Positions 2 through 10,033 of a DNA stretch of 64,000 nucleotides are shown here, one piece after another (position 1 is the first letter of the stretch; each line of letters begins with the position of its first letter). A program made the translations under genes and the position numbers. The notes under the pieces are model-generated. The model worked only from the letters and a program-made list of their open reading frames with translations. It was not told the DNA's origin and ran no database searches. This stretch comes from Phycisphaerales bacterium (GTDB taxonomy: Bacteria; Planctomycetota; Phycisphaerae; Phycisphaerales; SM1A02), in the NCBI GenBank assembly GCA_029245245.1, contig JAQWPT010000011.1, positions 124,001 to 188,000 on the forward strand. Direction: 5' to 3'.

Positions 2-895
2 GTCGGCCGTCGTCTCGGGTACCTCAACACGACCCAGACGGAGACGTCGACGACTCAGACCGTCGAGTTTCTCGATACCGGCATTCACCTGATGTTCCGC
101 CCCTTCATCACTCCCAACGAGATGATCCGGATGGAGTTGTATCCCCGGCTCTCCAGTGGTGATGTCGTGCTTGAGGCGAACTACACGGTGCCCAACGAGG
201 ATACCCACGAGATCTTCACCAACGTCCGAGTCAAGAGCGGCGAGACGATCGTGCTCGGCGGCCTGTTCGAGGAACAGACCACGATGAGTCGCGAGCAGGT
301 TCCTCTGCTCGGGGACATCCCGATCGTCGGTGGTGCGTTCCGCGGCCAGGACGATGAAACCCAGCGGAAGGAAATCATCTTTCTCCTGACACCGTCGATC
401 ATCGCCGACGAGCGTCTCTGGGAAATGGGGGAGGATGGACTCGAGATTCTCGACGCCGTCCGCCTCGGTGCCCGGGCCGGTCTCCTGCCCTTCAGCCGCG
501 ACCAGATCACCGCCGACTACAACCGCGACGCGATCGAGGCCTACCGCAACGGCGAGCTCGACCTGGCACTCTACTACGCGAACAACTCGCTGCGGACCGC
601 ATCGGTGCAGCCCGAGATGGCCCGAATGCGTGACACCTTGTCTTCCACGCACCAGGATGGATGGAGCCGCAACATGCAGCGGCGCATTCTCGATCGCGAG
701 ATCGACCTGGTGCCCGCCAACGACCTTGCCCCGATGCCGGTCGCACCCGATTTCAATCAAGAGCATCCCGAGGAGCCGGCAGGCGAGCCTGCATCGACCT
801 CCGATGCATCCGACCTGCCACGACTCGATACCGATTCGAGCGATGAGGGATTCGGTACGACGACGGATTCCGTCACCCGTGCCGAGACCGACTGA
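2..895 (+). CDS. Secretin (GspD/PilQ family), C-terminal part, truncated by window edge
   Basis: The reading frame is open from base 2, so the start lies upstream of the window; 297 residues are visible. The first ~140 residues are the end of a secretin beta-barrel domain: LMFRPFITPNEMIRMEL, then GETIVLGGLFEE, the hallmark VPLLGDIPIVGGAFR (about residues 100-114) and KEIIFLLTPSII. Secretins form the outer-membrane gate of type II secretion systems and type IV pili. After this domain comes ~150 residues of helical sequence and a Ser/Thr/Asp-rich tail, longer than the short S-domain of classical GspD. It is followed after 13 bases by a TPR lipoprotein and later by GspE- and GspF-type genes, which supports a secretion or pilus operon. 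Which of the two it is cannot be decided here. Confidence 0.93.
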   Translation, partial: VGRRLGYLNTTQTETSTTQTVEFLDTGIHLMFRPFITPNEMIRMELYPRLSSGDVVLEANYTVPNEDTHEIFTNVRVKSGETIVLGGLFEEQTTMSREQVPLLGDIPIVGGAFRGQDDETQRKEIIFLLTPSIIADERLWEMGEDGLEILDAVRLGARAGLLPFSRDQITADYNRDAIEAYRNGELDLALYYANNSLRTASVQPEMARMRDTLSSTHQDGWSRNMQRRILDREIDLVPANDLAPMPVAPDFNQEHPEEPAGEPASTSDASDLPRLDTDSSDEGFGTTTDSVTRAETD

Positions 896-908
896 ACGGA
901 GCCCGACC

Positions 909-2111
909 ATGCATTCGAACATCCTTTTCGTTCGCAGCCTGCTGCTCACGGTGGTCATCTTCGGCACCGCCGGATGCCATGGCCCCTCCAAGGCCGGGCT
1001 CGAGGCTCGTGAGAACGCCTACAACCGCATCGACAAGGTCAACACGCAGATCGCCTTCGGCCAGGCCCAGCAGGCCTTCGAGGTCGGCAATCTTCGCGAG
1101 GGGCTGGAGATCATCACCGAAGCGGTGGTTCGCTATCCCGAAGCAGCCGAGTACCACCTGCTCAAGGGTCGAATCCTCATGGAGATGGGGCGCCTCGACG
1201 AGGCTCGCATCGCGCTGGAAGGCGCGACCGAGCAGGACGACCAGTTGAGCGAGCCCTGGTACTTCCTGGGCATCGTCTACCAGCGATGGTCCGAGGATCA
1301 ACAGTCCCATGAACACTACATGCGTGCCGCCGATCTCGAACCCAACCGCCCCCAGTTTCTTCTTGCGTCCGCCGAGATGCTTGTCGCGATGAAGCGGTAC
1401 GAGCAGGCCGAGGGTCTGCTCATCAGCCGCATCCGCAAGTTCGAGCACCATCCGGCGATGCGACACCTGCTGGGACAGATCGCCGCGCTGCGTGGTGACA
1501 TGGACAAGGCCGTCCAGTACTACGAGGAAGCGAGCCTGCTCCAGTCCGAGGACATGCACCTGCTCTCGGAACTGGCCCACATGCAGTTCATGGCCGGCAA
1601 TGTTCCCGAGTGTCTGACCGTCATCGATCGCATCGAATTCAGCGGTCATGTCCTTGATCGCAATCTCCAGCGCACCAAGGCGCGCTGCCTCATGCATGCC
1701 AGGCGTGAACTCGAAGCTCGCCCGATCTACAAGAAGTTGCTTGCCAGTCGCGAGCACGACGTGATGCTCTGGGAAGAAGCAGGCATGCTGGCCTGGTCCA
1801 TCGAGGACTGGCGAGGATTGAACAACTGTGGACAACGTGTCTCCGCTCTCGCGCCGGATCACGCCAGCGGGTGGACCATGCTGGCCGTGGCCCATCGCAG
1901 CGAGGGGCGTTACGACCAGGCCGAGGCGAGCCTTCTGAAGGCCGTCGCCTGCGAGGACGCGAGTGCCCTCTGCTGGGTGCTGCTGGCGAATCTGCGGGAA
2001 CACAATGGTGATCTCACCGGGTCGATGAAAGCCTGGCAATCGGCGACGGATCTTGATGATTCGCTGTCGGGGCCCTCCAGACTGGCCGATGGAGCATCCA
2101 GCGGCGGCTGA
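909..2111 (+). CDS. TPR-repeat lipoprotein, possible secretin pilotin or assembly partner
   Basis: A 400-residue protein with an N-terminal signal sequence ending in the lipobox FGTAGC, so it is predicted to be lipid-anchored in the envelope. Most of the rest is a run of tetratricopeptide-like helical pairs (for example the stretches starting GNLREGLEII, GRLDEARIAL, GDMDKAVQYY and GRYDQAEASL). The start at 909 is chosen because GGAG lies at 898-901 and the lipobox is correctly placed; in-frame upstream sequence overlaps the secretin gene. TPR lipoproteins such as PilF/PilW assist secretin assembly, and its position right after the secretin suggests such a role. This is inference from context. 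Confidence 0.88.
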   Translation: MHSNILFVRSLLLTVVIFGTAGCHGPSKAGLEARENAYNRIDKVNTQIAFGQAQQAFEVGNLREGLEIITEAVVRYPEAAEYHLLKGRILMEMGRLDEARIALEGATEQDDQLSEPWYFLGIVYQRWSEDQQSHEHYMRAADLEPNRPQFLLASAEMLVAMKRYEQAEGLLISRIRKFEHHPAMRHLLGQIAALRGDMDKAVQYYEEASLLQSEDMHLLSELAHMQFMAGNVPECLTVIDRIEFSGHVLDRNLQRTKARCLMHARRELEARPIYKKLLASREHDVMLWEEAGMLAWSIEDWRGLNNCGQRVSALAPDHASGWTMLAVAHRSEGRYDQAEASLLKAVACEDASALCWVLLANLREHNGDLTGSMKAWQSATDLDDSLSGPSRLADGASSGG

Positions 2112-2134
2112 GGCCGCCCTGGAACGCTGGGGGC

Positions 2135-3613
2135 ATGCGAATGCAGAAAATGCTCAAGATGATGACCGGTTGCCTGGTCCTGGCCGTGCTCGCAGTGAGC
2201 CCGGCCTGGGGCATCTGCATCCTCTGGGTCCGGGAGACGACCGGGCAGACCACGGGTGTTCCGTGGCTCGGCCTGTGGGTGATCTCCGTGGTCGGCCTCT
2301 TCGCACTCCTTCTGCCGGTTGGCATTGCGGCTCGTCGGACCCTGTCCCGGCTGCACGACTACGTGGACGCCGCGGGAGCCCGTGCGTCCGCTTCGATTCC
2401 CGCCGGCCCGTTCTGGCTGCGACCGGTGCTTCGGTCGTTCGTCCAGTCGGTCGAGCAGTTCCGCCAGCGTGAGCGCGACCTGCGCAACCAGCATCGGGAT
2501 CTCGAAATCCAGCATCATGTCGCATCGGCGGAACGTCGCCAGATCGAAGCCGTCCTCGGCGTCATGTCCGAGGCCGTCATCGTGACCAACGCCTTCGACG
2601 AGATCGTCCTGGCCAACCAGGCGGCGGGTCGCCTCTTCGGATTCGATCCGGACGTGGCTCATCGCATTCCCATCGAGCGGCTGGTCAAGGATGATTCACT
2701 GCGATCGATCGTGCAGGAGACGAAGTCCGAGGGGAACTTCGTCGAGTGCCGTCACCTCGAGCATCGCCTCGAGGATGTATCCGCCGAAGAGGGTGGAGAG
2801 GGGCCGTTCTGCGACATCTCCATGGCCTGCGTCGCCGACCACCGGGGCCAGGTGGCCGCCGTGGTCACGATCGTCCGTGACAGGACCCGGGAACGCGAGA
2901 TTTCGCAGATGAAGAGCGAGTTCGTCTCCAAGGCGAGTCACGAACTGCGGACTCCATTGTCTTCTGTTCGTGCCTACGTCGAGATGCTCGTGGATGGGGA
3001 GGCCGAGGACGAGGTTGCCCGCCATGAGTTCTACCGGATCATCCAGGACGAGACGGAACGATTGACCCGTCTCGTGGACAACATGCTGAACATCAGCCGG
3101 ATCGAATCCGGAATCGTGCACGTGGATCGTGAGCGGGTCGACATGGGCTCGATCATCGAGCAGGCCATCGCCACCATCGAGCCGCATGCCCGTGAAAAGG
3201 ACATCAGCCTGCACCGTACGGCGGCTCCGGTCGACCTGCACGTACTCGGTGACCGCGACATGCTGTCGCAGGTCGTCGTGAACCTGCTGTCGAACGCCGT
3301 CAAGTACACGCCGCAGGGTGGTCGGATCACGCTCAAGATCGATTCGGACAACCTCGCCCGCTCCGTCCATGTCTCCGTGGCCGATACCGGCCTCGGGATT
3401 CCTCCGCAGGACCATGAACGGATCTTCGAGAAGTTCTTCCGCATCGAGAACTACAAGCGCGTGGCCGAGGGCACGGGCCTGGGGCTCAACCTCTGCCGCC
3501 ACATCGTTGAAACAGTTCACCGTGGAAACATCGGGCTTGATTCCAAGCTCGGCATGGGCTCCCGGTTCTGGTTTTCCATCCCGATGGGATGCGAGAAGAG
3601 TCTTGCCGCATGA
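2135..3613 (+). CDS. Membrane sensor histidine kinase with PAS domain
   Basis: 492 residues. Two hydrophobic segments near residues 9-30 and 45-68 anchor it in the inner membrane with only a short loop between them, so there is no large periplasmic sensor. A PAS-like domain follows (about 115-230, AVLGVMSEAVIVTNAFDEIV). The HisKA box SHELRTPLSSVRAY places the phosphorylated histidine at His269. An HATPase_c domain shows the N box (NLLSNAVKY), G1 (DTGLGIP) and G2 (GTGLGLNL). The response-regulator gene follows at once, so the two form a two-component pair inside the secretion operon. The signal sensed is unknown. Confidence 0.95.
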   Translation: MRMQKMLKMMTGCLVLAVLAVSPAWGICILWVRETTGQTTGVPWLGLWVISVVGLFALLLPVGIAARRTLSRLHDYVDAAGARASASIPAGPFWLRPVLRSFVQSVEQFRQRERDLRNQHRDLEIQHHVASAERRQIEAVLGVMSEAVIVTNAFDEIVLANQAAGRLFGFDPDVAHRIPIERLVKDDSLRSIVQETKSEGNFVECRHLEHRLEDVSAEEGGEGPFCDISMACVADHRGQVAAVVTIVRDRTREREISQMKSEFVSKASHELRTPLSSVRAYVEMLVDGEAEDEVARHEFYRIIQDETERLTRLVDNMLNISRIESGIVHVDRERVDMGSIIEQAIATIEPHAREKDISLHRTAAPVDLHVLGDRDMLSQVVVNLLSNAVKYTPQGGRITLKIDSDNLARSVHVSVADTGLGIPPQDHERIFEKFFRIENYKRVAEGTGLGLNLCRHIVETVHRGNIGLDSKLGMGSRFWFSIPMGCEKSLAA

Positions 3614-3624
3614 AGGACTGCTAC

Positions 3625-4017
3625 ATGACACAACGGATCCTGGTCGTCGACGACGAATCACACATCCTGCACGTGCTTTCACTCAAGCTCGGCAAGGCCG
3701 GCTATGAAGTGCTTACGGCGGTTGATGGGGAAGAGGGGCTTCACATGGCACGTGAAACGAAGCCGGACCTCGTGATCACGGACATCCAGATGCCGTACAT
3801 GACCGGGTTGGAACTCAGCCGGGAACTGGCTCAGGACGAGATCACGGCCGCCATCCCGGTCCTGATCCTGACCGCCCGGGGGTACGCGCTGTCCACCGAG
3901 GACCTGGAGACATCGAACATCCGCGAGGTGCTGAGCAAGCCCTTCAGTCCTCGCTCACTCATCGAACTCGTATCGTCGACGCTTGCGTCGACGGAGAACA
4001 GGAGTGAGGCGGCATGA
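3625..4017 (+). CDS. Response regulator, receiver domain only (CheY-like)
   Basis: 130 residues, essentially one receiver domain without an output domain. The acidic pair sits in ILVVDDE, the phosphoacceptor is Asp53 in DLVITDIQMP and the conserved lysine is Lys105 in LSKPF. The start at 3625 is preferred because GAAGGA at 3612-3617 is well placed before it; an ATG at 3610 that overlaps the kinase stop codon is an alternative adding five residues. Its stop overlaps the start of the HD-GYP gene (ATGA). As a stand-alone receiver it must act by protein contact, plausibly on the next gene product, but that partner is inferred from order only. Confidence 0.94.
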   Translation: MTQRILVVDDESHILHVLSLKLGKAGYEVLTAVDGEEGLHMARETKPDLVITDIQMPYMTGLELSRELAQDEITAAIPVLILTARGYALSTEDLETSNIREVLSKPFSPRSLIELVSSTLASTENRSEAA

Positions 4018-5654
4018 CCTCCATCAGTCGTCCAACCCGGATGCTCGTGGCCACGGATCGCCAGCAGGATCGCCTTCGCGAAGCGGGCATCGTGCTGCTG
4101 ACCTGTGACACGACGGGGCGGACGATGCCGTCCACCCGCGCCGGGGCCGACTGGCTCTGGTCACTGGTGGCACGCTCCGGCCTCGTGCTTCGGGCCCTGG
4201 CCGACTGCTGTGCTCAGTGGAACGATGCCGAGGTGCCGGCCCCCGTCGAAGGTGTGCCGGGACTGTGGTTCGTGCCCATTCCGATCGAGGAGCGTCGAAC
4301 GCGGACCGCGTACGCCGTGGCCTGCATTCCCTGCATGGAACTTCTCGACGCCGAACAGCTCTCGGCCATGTGCCAGGGAGCCAGGCTCGACACCACCTGG
4401 TGTCGTGGCCAGTTGGAACTGCTGCCTCCGGCTTCCTCCGCCGACGTGGACCGACTCGCGGTCCTCGTGCGCGGCGCCTGGCAGGACGAGCAGCGACGTT
4501 GCAACGACGAGCAGGTCATCGAGGACGTCGGCCGGGAACTCGGTGAGTCCTACGAGGAAATCAACCTGCTCTATTCGATCACACGAAACATGACCGAGGT
4601 GGACTGCCCGGAGCGATTCCTGCAGGTCACCTGCGAGGAACTGCGACAGCAGCTTCCATACACCTGGGTCGTGGCGCTGGTGGAGGGGACCGGCGCCACG
4701 TCCGAGGTGCCGGAACACGTGGCCATCGCGGGGGCGCCACCCCATGTGGCCGGGGACCTTGTTCGCTTCGGAACACGGCTCGTGCGAAGCGCCGCTCCGG
4801 ATCGGCCGATCGTCTTCGGGCCGGATGATCCCGGTGGACTTGGCCAGGGCTGCGCCGCCATTGCCCAGCCCATCCTTCGCGGGGGACAGGTCATCGGGTT
4901 GCTCATGGCCGCCTGCAAGGAGGACGACGATCAGGATGCCTCGTCCGTGGACATGAAACTCATGAGTGCCGCCGCGTCGCACATCGAAATCTTCCTCGAG
5001 AACGCGGGGCTCTACGAAGATCTCAATGCGATGTTCCTCGGTACGCTCGAATCACTCACCGCCTCGATCGACGCCAAGGACCGCTACACCTGTGGCCATT
5101 CCCGTCGCGTCGCCATGCTGAGTCGTCAGCTGGCCGAGGCCTGCGGTTGCGATGCCCACCTGCTCAACCGGGTGCACATCGCCGGACTCGTGCATGATGT
5201 CGGCAAGATCGGCGTACCCGAGCGGGTACTCGTGAAGCCAGGCCGACTCGATGAGCACGAGGTCGACTGGATTCGTCGGCACCCCGAGATGGGCCACCGG
5301 ATTCTCCGGGACATTCCGAACTTCGAGGACGTCCTCGAGGGCGTGCTGCACCACCACGAGCGGTGGGACGGTACCGGCTATCCCTGCTCGCTGGCGGGAG
5401 AAGACATTCCCCGCGTAGCCCGCATGATCGCCCTTGCCGATGCGTTCGACGCGATGATGTCCAGTCGTACGTATCGACGCGGCATGGCCCGCTCCCAGGT
5501 ACTTGCCGAACTCGAATCCTGCAGTGGCAGCCAGTTCGATCCAGATCTTGTTCCCGTCTTCCTCGCCCTGGACTTCACGGCCTACGACCGGCTCGTTGAA
5601 GAACACACGGTGGCGGAAGGCGATGCCGATTCAACGAGAGGTCGTGCCGCATGA
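4014..5654 (+). CDS. GAF/HD-GYP domain protein, predicted c-di-GMP phosphodiesterase
   Basis: 546 residues. The first ~180 residues match nothing I recognise. A GAF-like region follows at about 185-330, then a complete HD-GYP domain at about 340-520: HSRRVAMLS, the metal-binding pair His394-Asp395 in HDVGKIGVPE, HHHERWDGTGYP with Gly455-Tyr456-Pro457, and ALADAFDAMMSSRTYR. HD-GYP domains with this full set of residues hydrolyse cyclic di-GMP. No membrane segment is seen, so it should be cytoplasmic. It overlaps the receiver gene before it and the STAS gene after it by four bases each, so it is translationally coupled to both. Confidence 0.94.
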   Translation: MTSISRPTRMLVATDRQQDRLREAGIVLLTCDTTGRTMPSTRAGADWLWSLVARSGLVLRALADCCAQWNDAEVPAPVEGVPGLWFVPIPIEERRTRTAYAVACIPCMELLDAEQLSAMCQGARLDTTWCRGQLELLPPASSADVDRLAVLVRGAWQDEQRRCNDEQVIEDVGRELGESYEEINLLYSITRNMTEVDCPERFLQVTCEELRQQLPYTWVVALVEGTGATSEVPEHVAIAGAPPHVAGDLVRFGTRLVRSAAPDRPIVFGPDDPGGLGQGCAAIAQPILRGGQVIGLLMAACKEDDDQDASSVDMKLMSAAASHIEIFLENAGLYEDLNAMFLGTLESLTASIDAKDRYTCGHSRRVAMLSRQLAEACGCDAHLLNRVHIAGLVHDVGKIGVPERVLVKPGRLDEHEVDWIRRHPEMGHRILRDIPNFEDVLEGVLHHHERWDGTGYPCSLAGEDIPRVARMIALADAFDAMMSSRTYRRGMARSQVLAELESCSGSQFDPDLVPVFLALDFTAYDRLVEEHTVAEGDADSTRGRAA

Positions 5655-6001
5655 AGATGCACTTCGAAGAACATCGTTCCGCAATCGTGCTTCGTCTCGA
5701 AGGGGAATGCACCCATGAAGATGTCGACGGCTTCCGCCGGCGCTGCCAGGAATGGCTGGCTCGCGGAGGTGGTTCATACATCATCGACGGGGAAGCGATG
5801 GGACGAATCGACTCCGCCGGGCTCGAAGCCCTCCTCTGGTTTGCCGAGGAGATTCGGCGTGCATCCGGACGACTTCGCCTTGCTCGCCTCAGTGAGCTCG
5901 TATCCAAGGCCATGATCGTGACCCGGCTCGACCGCCGGTTCGAGATCCATGACAGCATCGAGGAAGCGGCACGCTCGCTTTCCAGATCGGAGGCAGCGTG
6001 A
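5651..6001 (+). CDS. STAS-domain protein, anti-sigma factor antagonist type
   Basis: 116 residues with the length and pattern of a single STAS domain (SpoIIAA/RsbV family). The phosphorylatable serine region is IDSAGLEAL, with Ser55. In the known family the dephosphorylated protein binds a serine-kinase anti-sigma factor and frees a sigma factor; some members instead control other complexes by partner switching. No RsbW-type kinase gene is next to it. It overlaps both neighbours by four bases, so it is made together with the HD-GYP protein and the secretion ATPase. Confidence 0.9.
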   Translation: MKMHFEEHRSAIVLRLEGECTHEDVDGFRRRCQEWLARGGGSYIIDGEAMGRIDSAGLEALLWFAEEIRRASGRLRLARLSELVSKAMIVTRLDRRFEIHDSIEEAARSLSRSEAA

Positions 6002-7725
6002 TTCAGCCATCCATTCACATGCCGAACGGGGCCGCTCGCCAGCCACTGGGGGAACTGCTCATTTCCCGTGGCGTACTGACGGAGCGGCAACTCGAACAGG
6101 CGCTGGGCCACCAGGCACAGAACGACCACCGTTCGCTGCTGGGTGAAGTCCTCATCGAACTGGGGTTCGCCACCGAGCAGCAGGTCATGGAAGTCCTGGC
6201 CGAGGGCTACGGGATCCCCTGCGTGGAGCAGGTGGCCCGGGTCGCGGATCCTCGCGTCATCGAGGTCCTGCCCCGGGAGTTCATCGAGGAGCACAAGGTG
6301 CTTCCGCTGTTCCTGGTCCGCTCGATGCTCACCGTCGCCGTCTCGGAACCTTCGAACCTCTACCTCGTGGAGGAGATCGCGCGTCGCACCGGCCATGAGG
6401 TGCAGATCGTCGCGGCGTCCTCTGCCGAGATCGATGCCGCGATCACGTCCTGGCTCCCGGCAGCGAACGTATTCGTCATCGACGACATCTACGAGGACAT
6501 CGCGGAAGAGGATTTCAGTGTCATCGAGCGTCAGGTCACGGAACTGGCCGATCTCGAGCAGGTGGCCGGCCACGGTCCAGTGGTCAAGCTGGTGAACTTC
6601 ATCATCTACTCCGCGGTGCAGGAGGGGGCCTCCGATATCCACATCGAACCCGATGACCAGTGCCTGCGGGTGCGGTACAGGGTGGACGGTCGTCTCTACG
6701 AGAAGATCTCCCCCCCGTATCGAATGCATGCCGCGATTTCCAGCCGCATCAAGATCATGAGCAACCTGGACATTTCCGAGCGGCGGATTCCACAGGACGG
6801 CGACTTCAATGTGATGCTCGAGGGACGGCCGATCGACCTTCGTGTCTCGACCATGCCTGGCAAGTACGGCGAAATCGTCGTCATCCGGATCATCGACAGC
6901 GACACGAACCGCATCGGCCTCGGCCAGCTCGGGCTCAGTGCGGACATCCTGTCGAAATGGACGGATCTCATCTCGCACCCCAATGGCGTGGTTCTGGTGA
7001 CGGGACCCACGGGATCAGGCAAGTCGACCACGCTCTATTCCGTTCTGAGCCAGGTCAACTCCGCGGAACTGAACATCTCGACCATCGAGGATCCGGTGGA
7101 AGCCAGGATTTCCGGCATCAACCAGTCCCAGGTCAATACCCGGGCGGGATTCACGTTTGCCTCGGCCATGCGATCGATGCTGCGACAGGACCCCGACATC
7201 CTGATGGTCGGGGAAGTCCGGGATGCGGAAACCGCGTCGATCTGCACCCAGGCGGCATTGACCGGTCATCTCGTCTTTTCAACCCTGCACACCAATGATT
7301 CGCCAAGTGCCGTGACGCGACTGTGCAACCTCGGCATCGAGCCCTACCTCGTGGCCGCAACGCTTCGTGGCGTCCTGGCCCAGCGACTGGTGCGCAAGAT
7401 CTGTCCCAACTGCAAGGAACCCTGGACACCGGATGACCGGACTTCCGAGGCGGTCCTCCGGGCCTGCGAGGGATTCCAGTCGGTGCAGCGCGGAGCAGGG
7501 TGCAGCCACTGTCGAAAGACAGGATTCGCCGGCCGGCTCGGCATCTTTGAACTGCTTGTTCCGGATGAGGGCTTTCTTGACGCGGTCGCCGGTGGGGCGA
7601 CGCTGCAGGCCCTCCGGGCCCGACTTGGCGAACTCGACTTCCAGTCACTCTGGGAAGACGGCCTCGCCAAGGTCCGTGCCGGACTGACAACACCGGATGA
7701 AGTGCTTTGCGCAACGCGACTCTGA
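5998..7725 (+). CDS. Type II secretion / type IV pilus assembly ATPase (GspE/PilB family)
   Basis: 575 residues, starting at a GTG that overlaps the previous stop, with GGAGG at 5989-5993. The N-terminal ~70 residues (LGELLISRGVLTERQLEQAL, then LLGEVLIELGFATEQQ) resemble the MshEN/GspE N-domain, which binds c-di-GMP in some homologues. The ATPase domain has Walker A GPTGSGKST with Lys342, an Asp box, Walker B and a His box. A tetracysteine zinc motif (Cys469, Cys472, Cys502, Cys505), typical of GspE/PilB, is intact. The protein powers pseudopilus or pilus assembly from the cytoplasmic side, working with the GspF-type protein encoded next. Confidence 0.96.
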   Translation: MIQPSIHMPNGAARQPLGELLISRGVLTERQLEQALGHQAQNDHRSLLGEVLIELGFATEQQVMEVLAEGYGIPCVEQVARVADPRVIEVLPREFIEEHKVLPLFLVRSMLTVAVSEPSNLYLVEEIARRTGHEVQIVAASSAEIDAAITSWLPAANVFVIDDIYEDIAEEDFSVIERQVTELADLEQVAGHGPVVKLVNFIIYSAVQEGASDIHIEPDDQCLRVRYRVDGRLYEKISPPYRMHAAISSRIKIMSNLDISERRIPQDGDFNVMLEGRPIDLRVSTMPGKYGEIVVIRIIDSDTNRIGLGQLGLSADILSKWTDLISHPNGVVLVTGPTGSGKSTTLYSVLSQVNSAELNISTIEDPVEARISGINQSQVNTRAGFTFASAMRSMLRQDPDILMVGEVRDAETASICTQAALTGHLVFSTLHTNDSPSAVTRLCNLGIEPYLVAATLRGVLAQRLVRKICPNCKEPWTPDDRTSEAVLRACEGFQSVQRGAGCSHCRKTGFAGRLGIFELLVPDEGFLDAVAGGATLQALRARLGELDFQSLWEDGLAKVRAGLTTPDEVLCATRL

Positions 7726-7736
7726 GGAATCGATCC

Positions 7737-8984
7737 ATGGTGAACCACAGTGAATCCACCTATGCGTATCGCGCCCGGACCGCATCCGGCGAGGCCGTGA
7801 CCGGCTCGCTCGTGGGCCATGACCGTGATGACGTTGCCGAACGCCTTCGCAACGAAGGCCTCTTCATCACATCGATCGGATCCGAAGCCACTGGAACTCT
7901 GCCGCAACTCGATGCCGACCAGATTCGAAGCCAGCAGGGGCTGCGCCGCATCAAGCGTGCCGACGTGGTCTCGTTCGCGCAGCAGTTGTCGGTCATGCTT
8001 GAAACCGGAGTGCCGCTGCCGGAAGGACTTGAGGCGATCGCCCGCCAGACACGGCGGCGTGAGTTTCGGGAAGTGATCCAGTCGGTGCATGAAGATGTCT
8101 GCGGGGGCTCGCCCCTCTCCGATGCGCTGGCTCGATGGCCGAAGGTGTTTCCCGGTGTCATGGTGAGCCTGCTGCGTGCGGCGGAACTCTCCGGCACGAC
8201 GGCCCTGATGCTGGCTCGCGTCAGTGACTACCTCTCCAAGGAACTCAAGACACGCCGGCAGGTTCGCGGTGCACTGCTGTACCCGAGTTTCATGCTGGGC
8301 TCCGGACTGCTCGTGGTGGTGTTCCTGGTCACGTTCATCCTGCCGCGGTTCGCGAAGATCTACGAGATGCGATCGGCTTCACTGCCGACGCCGACGAAGG
8401 TGCTCATGTCCATCGGCACGTTTGCTGCCGAAGGTTGGATGTACTACGTGCCCGTACTCGTGGCGATGACCGTGGGCCTGCTGGTCCTGCCTCGCACCAG
8501 TCCGGGTCGTCGCTGCATCGACTGGATGAAACTGCGATTGCCCGTGCTGCGGTCCATCCATGTGAATCTCTACGTGACCCGGTCGACGCGGACCATGTCG
8601 ACCCTGCTCGCTGCGGGAGTGAACCTGATGGATGTCATCCATGCCTGCCGAAGCGTCACGCGCAACGTGATCTTCGACCGGATCTGGACGAACATGGAAG
8701 AACATGTCCGTGACGGCCGTCGGCTCAGCCTCGCCTTCGAGGACAGTCACATCGTGCCTGCGAACGTGGCCTCGATGGTCGCCGCCGGGGAACGCTCCGG
8801 GCGGCTGCCCGAGGTGATGGACCGGGTGGCGGAATACAGCGAAGAGGAACTGGATCTGGCCATCCGCAAGAGCACCACGATGCTCGAGCCCCTGCTGATC
8901 ATCTTCATGGGCCTGTTGGTGGGTGTCGTGGCCATCGCGCTGCTGCTGCCCATCTTCCGCATGAGCAGTGTCATCGCCGGGTGA
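7737..8984 (+). CDS. Inner-membrane secretion/pilus platform protein (GspF/PilC family)
   Basis: 415 residues. Two repeated cytoplasmic GspF domains (about 80-200 and 280-400) are each followed by membrane segments, with characteristic FAQQLSVMLETGVPLPEGLE and TRTMSTLLAAGVNLMDVI. The C-terminal segment LLIIFMGLLVGVVAIALLLPIF is a standard family end. The start at 7737 follows GAGGA at 7724-7728; an in-frame upstream ATG would overlap the ATPase gene. Family members form the platform on which the GspE/PilB ATPase acts. It ends five bases before the oppositely oriented dus gene, so the operon ends here with no room for pilin genes; these must lie elsewhere. Confidence 0.95.
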   Translation: MVNHSESTYAYRARTASGEAVTGSLVGHDRDDVAERLRNEGLFITSIGSEATGTLPQLDADQIRSQQGLRRIKRADVVSFAQQLSVMLETGVPLPEGLEAIARQTRRREFREVIQSVHEDVCGGSPLSDALARWPKVFPGVMVSLLRAAELSGTTALMLARVSDYLSKELKTRRQVRGALLYPSFMLGSGLLVVVFLVTFILPRFAKIYEMRSASLPTPTKVLMSIGTFAAEGWMYYVPVLVAMTVGLLVLPRTSPGRRCIDWMKLRLPVLRSIHVNLYVTRSTRTMSTLLAAGVNLMDVIHACRSVTRNVIFDRIWTNMEEHVRDGRRLSLAFEDSHIVPANVASMVAAGERSGRLPEVMDRVAEYSEEELDLAIRKSTTMLEPLLIIFMGLLVGVVAIALLLPIFRMSSVIAG

Positions 8985-8989
8985 GGCGA

Positions 8990-10033
8990 TCAGGCGAATG
9001 CAGGAGCGGGCGAGGCGGTTGCCGGTTCGTAGGATCGCCAGTCGTGCAGGGCACGGCGGATCTCTTCACTTGATGTCGCGGTGCGGATTCGTTCCTTCAG
9101 GGGCTTGATGTGCCCCATGGTCTTTCCGTACCAGGCGATGGCGCTGCGCAGCCGATGCATCACCATGCGTTCGCTCTGGTGCTCGAGGATCAGGTCGAGG
9201 TGCCGTTCGATGCAGTCGATCCGTTCGCGGAACGTCGGGTCGGGCAGTTCGACACCATGGACCAGCAGCGAGCGGATCTGGTTGAAGAGCCAGGGACGGC
9301 GCAGGGCTCCGCGTCCGACCATGACCGCGTCGCATCCCGTGGCCTCGACCATCGCACGTGCATCTTCCGCGCAGCGGATGTCGCCGTTGCCGATGACGGG
9401 AATCGTCTTGACTGCAGCCTTGACTTCCGCGATGCCGCCGAGGCGGACTTCGCCCTTGAATCGCATTTCCGTCGTTCTGCCGTGGACGGTGATCGCGGCG
9501 ATGCCGATGTCCTCCAGGCGTCGGGCAAGTTCGGATCCGACCAGTTGTCGGTCATCCCAGCCCAGGCGGATCTTCGCCGTGACCGGGGTCCCGGTGGTGG
9601 GCGTGATCGCTTCAACGATCCGCTGTGCCAGACGGACGGTGGAATCCGTATCACACAGCAGCAGCGATCCACCGTGCTTCTTGGCGACCTTGTCGACGGG
9701 GCATCCCATGTTGATGTCCACGATCGCCGCCCCGTGATCGACCGCCCAGCGGGCCGCCTCTGGAAGGGGGTCATCCTCGTTGCCATAGAGTTGCATGCAC
9801 AGCGGGCTGTCCTGCTCGCAGGTGGCGGCGAGTTCCATGGCCCGGGGCGATCCACGCAGGATGCTGTGGGAGTTCAGCAGGTCCGTACTGGCCAGGCCCA
9901 CCCCCCCGTGCTCCCTGCAGAGCCTCCGAAAGGGCAGGTCGCAGTGGCCCGCCATGGGGGCCAGCAGGGCAGGAGAATCAAGTTGGACCCCTCCGATGCA
10001 GGGGGAGGCCAGGAGCCATTCAGAGAGCGTCAT
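8990..10033 (-). CDS. dus: tRNA-dihydrouridine synthase (Dus family)
   Basis: 347 residues with the FMN-binding TIM-barrel features of the Dus family: [18 protein letters not shown] at the N-terminus, [18 protein letters not shown] with the catalytic cysteine, [23 protein letters not shown] and VMVGRGAL. The enzyme reduces specific uridines to dihydrouridine in the D-loop of tRNA. The sequence is nearest in style to DusB-type proteins, but I do not assign a subgroup. A TAGAAT hexamer lies only six bases upstream of the ATG with no Shine-Dalgarno sequence, which suggests a leaderless transcript. Confidence 0.94.

Follow-up and report, generated by a model that had tools for sequence, protein, structure and literature searches.

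A few proteobacterial, Thermus and related systems are known to control their pilus motors by cyclic di-GMP (c-di-GMP), usually with the c-di-GMP enzymes encoded elsewhere in the genome. The system analysed here lies in a window of 64,000 nucleotides (the whole stretch of DNA under study, C6:124001-188000) of a 2.69 Mb Phycisphaerales genome, whose closest named relatives in the genome collection are the Phycisphaerales metagenome-assembled genomes (MAGs) UBA3160 and UBA854. Positions 2-8984 of the window are the 3' part of a longer type-IV-filament operon in which genes for a histidine kinase (HK), a stand-alone receiver (REC), an HD-GYP protein and a STAS protein stand between the secretin and TPR genes and those of the ATPase and GspF. 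A receptor-type ATPase and a predicted c-di-GMP hydrolase lie close together in this way across the class Phycisphaerae, and the enzyme at this fixed position changes sign between lineages, a predicted synthase being found in its place elsewhere. The components are known ones; what is undescribed, as far as the open-licence literature shows, is their phylum-wide arrangement around an exchangeable c-di-GMP enzyme, and no system with this layout was found there, in line with the reading made earlier from the sequence only.

Vibrio cholerae MshE (5HTL; PMC5013675) belongs to the same ATPase family as the motor of this operon and shares its N-domain fold. The glycines and leucine triads of both c-di-GMP motifs are kept here (save for one leucine of motif II, see below), as is the glutamine of motif I. 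In contrast to MshE, the present ATPase has P as the first residue of motif I, G in place of Q as the last of motif II, and a spacer of 7 residues where MshE has 5. For the MSHA system, no HK, REC, HD-GYP or STAS genes are described in the interval from secretin to ATPase. The GSPII-B domain of Thermus thermophilus PilF (PMC11731258) is also of the MshEN type, binds c-di-GMP without the motif arginines, and shares with the present ATPase an L as the first residue of motif II; PilF differs in containing three of these domains, with both glutamines retained (PMC11731258). The PilB-PilZ-FimX system of Xanthomonas citri (PMC8389850), where a c-di-GMP protein is linked to the pilus motor by a small adaptor on the N-domain of PilB, is a possible model for the role of STAS. 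The HsbR-HsbA-HsbD pathway of Pseudomonas aeruginosa (PMC5085249) resembles the operon in uniting a receiver-based input, a STAS-type anti-anti-sigma protein and a c-di-GMP enzyme, the binding of the STAS protein to the enzyme being physical there. It differs in that HsbR is itself the HsbA kinase/phosphatase, that its output is flagellar genes and biofilm with no pilus motor, and that the enzyme is a GGDEF protein. Surface fibres have been described in planctomycetes (PMC5394234), and nothing on the control of their motors was found in the open-licence literature.

Pfam searches confirmed both the domains and the gene order that the sequence-only reading had assigned to the window. The membrane HK (2135-3613, on the + strand like all operon genes) has PAS, HisKA and HATPase_c domains and the H-box SHELRTPL. 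It is followed by REC (3610-4017, start probably at 3625; Response_reg, 86.7 bits), by a GAF-HD-GYP protein predicted to be a c-di-GMP phosphodiesterase (4014-5654; GAF, and HD_5 with 131 bits), by a single-domain STAS protein (5651-6001; STAS, 52 bits) and by a PilB/GspE-type ATPase with an MshEN domain (5998-7725; MshEN 59 bits, T2SSE 425 bits; c-di-GMP motif at residues 16-69). The complete operon starts at a pilin gene about 5.6 kb upstream of the window and reads pilin, GspH-like pseudopilin, PilM, PilN, PilO, PilP-like, secretin, TPR, HK, REC, GAF-HD-GYP, STAS, ATPase and GspF.

Related loci were recruited by STAS similarity from 60 relatives, 298 genomes of the class, 392 of the phylum and 249 of the class of genome G672, and further ones by REC alignment in the named genome collection; all were scanned with profiles made from the operon's own proteins. 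The presence of STAS and REC in these loci is partly due to selection, as they are the recruiting proteins, while their neighbours are free of it. After deduplication, 137 loci have STAS immediately before the ATPase. The order REC-HDGYP-STAS-ATPase is found in 93 distinct loci, 90 of them with an HK, and all but one (L194) belong to Phycisphaerae; REC alone precedes STAS in 23, HK stands directly before STAS in 9, and the others have REC with GGDEF (6), HD-GYP with GGDEF (4) or HD-GYP without REC (2). Twenty loci sampled over 18 Phycisphaerae families keep REC-HDGYP-STAS-ATPase, one of them (L103) also with GGDEF. The survey rules out a misassembly or a single odd genome as the source of the layout, and the 93 loci bear out the expectation that in relatives the signalling genes remain next to those for secretion. 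Where the fetched stretch reaches them, the upstream PilM-N-O-P-secretin genes are mostly kept, both in the six GGDEF loci and in the 22 loci from outside the class that have REC alone; all of these are therefore taken to be the same operon. The order HK-REC-STAS-ATPase is maintained across classes; judged by gene order, it is the constant core of the block and the predicted c-di-GMP enzyme is an exchangeable insert.

Natural variants within the class fit this picture. Genome G057 has TPR-REC-STAS-ATPase without HK or HD-GYP (L054) and also a divergent REC and HD-GYP adjoining a second HK-STAS-ATPase cluster (L068), and in L064 HK and REC are both missing from HD-GYP-STAS-ATPase. Several Phycisphaerae have a second, paralogous cluster HK-STAS-ATPase-GspF-pilins with no adjoining REC or HD-GYP (L066, L069-L073; e.g. 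L073:7582-12739). No neighbouring STAS and ATPase genes were found at the best non-planctomycete matches of the REC search (L174-L184 in part), no other phylum having been properly searched.

Outside the class, the slot between REC and STAS holds nothing in 22 loci, GAF-GGDEF in 6, and HD-GYP plus GGDEF in 3. The slot genes were read directly in L185, L190 and L192 (GAF-GGDEF) and in L188, L189, L191 and L103 (HD-GYP, then GAF-GGDEF); three more GGDEF slots, in L208, L210 and L223, were recognised by profile. The motif RYGGEEF or RFGGEEF is intact in 5 of the 6 GGDEF-only loci and in 3 of the 4 double loci, being degenerate in L192 and L103. Since GGDEF occurs in other lineages where HD-GYP sits here, two opposite c-di-GMP enzymes occupy one position, a swap that further supports the link to c-di-GMP. 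In the loci whose slot open reading frames (ORFs) were examined, changes are confined to c-di-GMP enzymes or none, except in L201. There, in a class relative, a 480-residue ORF without Pfam family lies between HK and STAS (L201:8119-9558); all other slot genes seen are recognised as c-di-GMP enzymes. As occupants of the slot in other classes, PP2C and further genes of the partner-switching kind were considered and discarded, the slot genes found being GGDEF or HD-GYP, bar the L201 ORF. On the ATPase tree the slot type changes 8 times, versus 34.6 in shuffles (68 rows, quick method, L102 and L194 being long branches), which is inheritance of the slot with a few switches, gains and losses not being distinguished. 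That the slot holds a predicted hydrolase, a predicted synthase, the two together or no enzyme at all, according to lineage, suggests that c-di-GMP controls the motor.

The genes of the block are tightly joined, if less regularly than first proposed. Of four consecutive 4-base overlaps claimed from the sequence, those at REC/HDGYP (4014-4017), HDGYP/STAS (5651-5654) and STAS/ATPase (5998-6001) stand. The one at HK/REC is doubtful, existing solely if REC begins at ATG 3610. The in-frame ATG 3625 has AAGGA (3613-3617) seven bases upstream and aligns with the start in most relatives, so that three overlaps and one short gap, of 11 bases after HK, are likelier. Of 31 relatives that carry the complete block, 27 have a start codon allowing a 4-base overlap at REC/HDGYP, 27 at HDGYP/STAS, 10 at STAS/ATPase and 6 at HK/REC; by this measure overlaps at the block junctions exceed chance.

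The N-domain of the ATPase had been proposed to be of the MshEN type, and the profile check agrees: it scores above the curated cut-offs of Pfam MshEN PF05157 (59.3 bits, cut-off 23.1) and NCBIfam c-di-GMP_motif NF053729 (54.2 bits, cut-off 38). Its AlphaFold2 model (mean predicted local distance difference test score, pLDDT, 83) has 5HTL, MshE with c-di-GMP, as best PDB match (E 1.4e-10, TM-score 0.82 by target). The c-di-GMP_motif model is also matched by the ATPases of all sampled relatives (32/32 and 24/24, E 0.001 or better). In the window ATPase, the motif I residues L, G, G, L, L and Q are conserved and R9 of the alignment is replaced by P; in motif II, L, G, G and L58 are conserved, whereas L54 is replaced by V and Q61 by G.

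Together, the slot swap and the MshEN domain make an involvement of c-di-GMP, as predicted from these sequences, well supported. We favour the hypothesis that the operon carries its own input-output block, in which REC would act on STAS and on the slot enzyme and MshEN-bound c-di-GMP would set the motor; we give it an even chance of being correct as a whole. The HK would phosphorylate REC, which would act on STAS and, if present, on the c-di-GMP enzyme of the slot (the HD-GYP hydrolase in Phycisphaerae). STAS would dock on the PilB/GspE-type ATPase or gate it, and c-di-GMP on the MshEN domain would set the ease with which the motor runs. Motor activity would fall with hydrolysis by HD-GYP and rise, in other lineages, with synthesis by GGDEF in the same slot. 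Direct c-di-GMP control of the ATPase is probably the most likely single mechanism, with a balance of about even between right and wrong, and a switch centred on STAS comes next. The control of the ATPase by c-di-GMP put forward in the sequence-only reading is partly supported, by the MshEN match and the slot swap, and direct binding is uncertain because 92 of the 93 HD-GYP-type relatives have lost the glutamine of motif II.

This loss is one of several points that weigh against the favoured hypothesis. In the HD-GYP-type loci the motif I glutamine is present in 93/93 and that of motif II in 1/93, and the residue at R9 is P or Q in most. Two half-motif deviations together could abolish binding, by analogy with the double Q mutant of PilF, in which c-di-GMP binding is lost (PMC11731258). 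Furthermore, the operon lacks a c-di-GMP enzyme in one f6 genome of the class and in 22 loci that lie outside it, and turnover of the messenger is thus not essential to the block. Gene fusions of STAS or ATPase with another block member were found in none of the fetched loci. Concerning the binding site, PilF Q218E, altered at the position of the glutamine lost here, still binds c-di-GMP at 460 nM, similar to MshE, the first-position arginine of the motif is dispensable for binding in PilF, and P also opens motif II of the T. thermophilus GSPII-C domain, a binder (PMC11731258). Since the Q218E protein binds and the arginine is dispensable, c-di-GMP binding by the present ATPase is plausible from its motifs, despite the double mutant. 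In the double-enzyme loci motif II starts with R and mostly ends with Q.

The STAS protein scores just above the cut-off of TIGR00377 (54.4 versus 53.45 bits) and carries the Asp-Ser of anti-sigma-factor antagonists at D54 and S55, invariant in both STAS alignments, with one DG and two AS as exceptions among all loci. STAS adjoins the ATPase in every arrangement seen, the loci being largely selected on STAS, and the REC motifs TDxQMP and KPFSPR are conserved in relatives. In the sequence-only reading STAS was a second switch, and the kinase signal worked through the HD-GYP protein. This is not supported in that form: STAS is kept where HD-GYP is absent and so belongs to the constant core, and REC, kept in the same way, cannot act through HD-GYP alone. 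These observations give some room to another explanation, which we regard as possible and distinctly the weaker one, namely a direct action of REC and STAS on the motor, the c-di-GMP enzymes being accessory outputs bound to STAS, so that the ATPase need not bind c-di-GMP. It is consistent with the adjacency of REC and STAS to the ATPase in loci without a c-di-GMP enzyme, with HK-STAS-ATPase being all that is kept in the second paralogous cluster (L066, L069-L073) and in the nine HK-only loci, and with the STAS serine, present in all loci checked but one. There is also precedent in the phosphorylated HsbA of P. aeruginosa, which binds the diguanylate cyclase HsbD (PMC5085249). However, no partner-switching serine kinase or PP2C phosphatase was found in the operons (kinases elsewhere in the genome were not searched), the five SpoIIE-type phosphatases of the genome being on other contigs, and a motor switched by STAS leaves the kept MshEN domain unexplained.

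The HD-GYP protein of the window has the intact motifs LVHDVGK and HHERWDGTGYP, and each of the 99 proteins checked retains these motifs, one having GYG for GYP. Its nearest solved relatives, with equal score, are V-cGAP3 (5Z7C, specific for cyclic GMP-AMP, cGAMP) and the GAF-HD-GYP protein 4MCW; the protein is a predicted c-di-GMP phosphodiesterase with a 3',3'-cGAMP-specific enzyme among the equally near structures. Its N-terminal domain (residues 1-196, window 4014-4601) has conserved PGxW and RR..GY motifs and no Pfam match, and the fair predicted model of the N-terminal 205 residues (pLDDT 85) gave no significant PDB fold match, with weak PAS/GAF-like matches only. Family searches, on which the genome-wide counts rest, found three GGDEF, two HD-GYP and two PilZ proteins and no EAL protein in the genome. 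No evidence was found for the local action on c-di-GMP that the sequence-only reading had assumed, and with only two HD-GYP proteins and no EAL this one may act on the whole-cell pool. An unlikely extension of this idea is that HD-GYP serves total c-di-GMP, shares no more than its expression with the pilus genes and has no private target in the operon. Each hydrolase should matter for the pool in such a genome, the two PilZ proteins encoded elsewhere offer alternative receptors, and motif II of the ATPase is degenerate. Against this, the retention of overlapping genes at one position throughout the class, and the opposite enzyme in that slot in other lineages, exceed the needs of co-expression, and every ATPase sampled retains its match to the c-di-GMP motif model. 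That the block has no regulatory meaning, being an accident of transcription that became fixed early in the class, is very improbable: the slot content follows the ATPase tree, as expected of plain vertical inheritance, but the order HK-REC-STAS-ATPase is kept across classes and the content of examined slots varies only between c-di-GMP enzymes or none.

More broadly, and quite tentatively, the block could be a phylum-wide motor cassette, a REC and STAS phosphoswitch fixed on a PilB-type ATPase, with STAS holding an enzyme of either sign that would make c-di-GMP private to the motor. The set of lineages offers a natural comparison of how a diffusible messenger becomes specific to one machine, and also addresses whether STAS proteins can switch a motor instead of a sigma factor.

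The filament system has parts above the Pfam cut-offs that are shared by type IVa pili and type II secretion systems (PilM_2, PilO, Secretin, T2SSE, T2SSF, N_methyl). All NCBIfam equivalog cut-offs are missed (score/cut-off: GspE 574/630, PilB 555/676, PilQ 227/284, GspF 314/424). As the ATPase and its partners fall under every equivalog cut-off of either kind, these profiles make it a type-IV-filament system (pilus or type II secretion-like), neither specifically. The operon has no retraction ATPase PilT; a short T2SSE protein of 393 residues is encoded elsewhere, on contig C30. It is flanked there by two more PilB-type ATPases (G000 C30:193754-198272; L075, L077, L081), and the three may form a pilus locus of their own that has a retraction ATPase.

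The upstream genes are given in coordinates of locus L001, from which window positions follow by subtracting 14000. The pilin gene (L001:8392-8826) has an N_methyl match above the Pfam cut-off and is separated by a small ORF (L001:9055) from that of the GspH-like pseudopilin (L001:9443-9997). PilM (L001:10001-11191; PilM_2) and PilO (L001:11850-12416; PilO) are also above their Pfam cut-offs, PilN (L001:11188-11853) is marginal (22.4, cut-off 22.8), and the PilP-like protein (L001:12418-12996), without Pfam match, is assigned by position. The PilQ/GspD-like secretin gene (L001:13027-14895) enters the window with its C-terminal part (2-895), Pfam Secretin scoring 116 bits for this part and 144 bits for the whole gene. 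It is followed by a TPR lipoprotein-like gene (909-2111), PilW/pilotin-like by position, with matches to TPR families down to 4.5e-20 and 72 bits to NCBIfam PilW, under the cut-off of 154. The last operon gene codes for the inner-membrane protein GspF/PilC (7737-8984; T2SSF, 195 bits), and a convergent ORF resembling tRNA-dihydrouridine synthase (8990-10033, - strand) lies 3' of it. A scan of the window found no RNA families. Elsewhere, L136, L140, L146, L154 and L173 are pilin-GspH-secretin-(TPR)-HK-REC-HDGYP clusters with no STAS, ATPase or GspF downstream within the fetched stretch, L173 having no HK or TPR match. Operon fragments in two MAGs titled Limnohabitans and Candidatus Kuenenia (L141, L150) look like misbinned phycisphaeral contigs.

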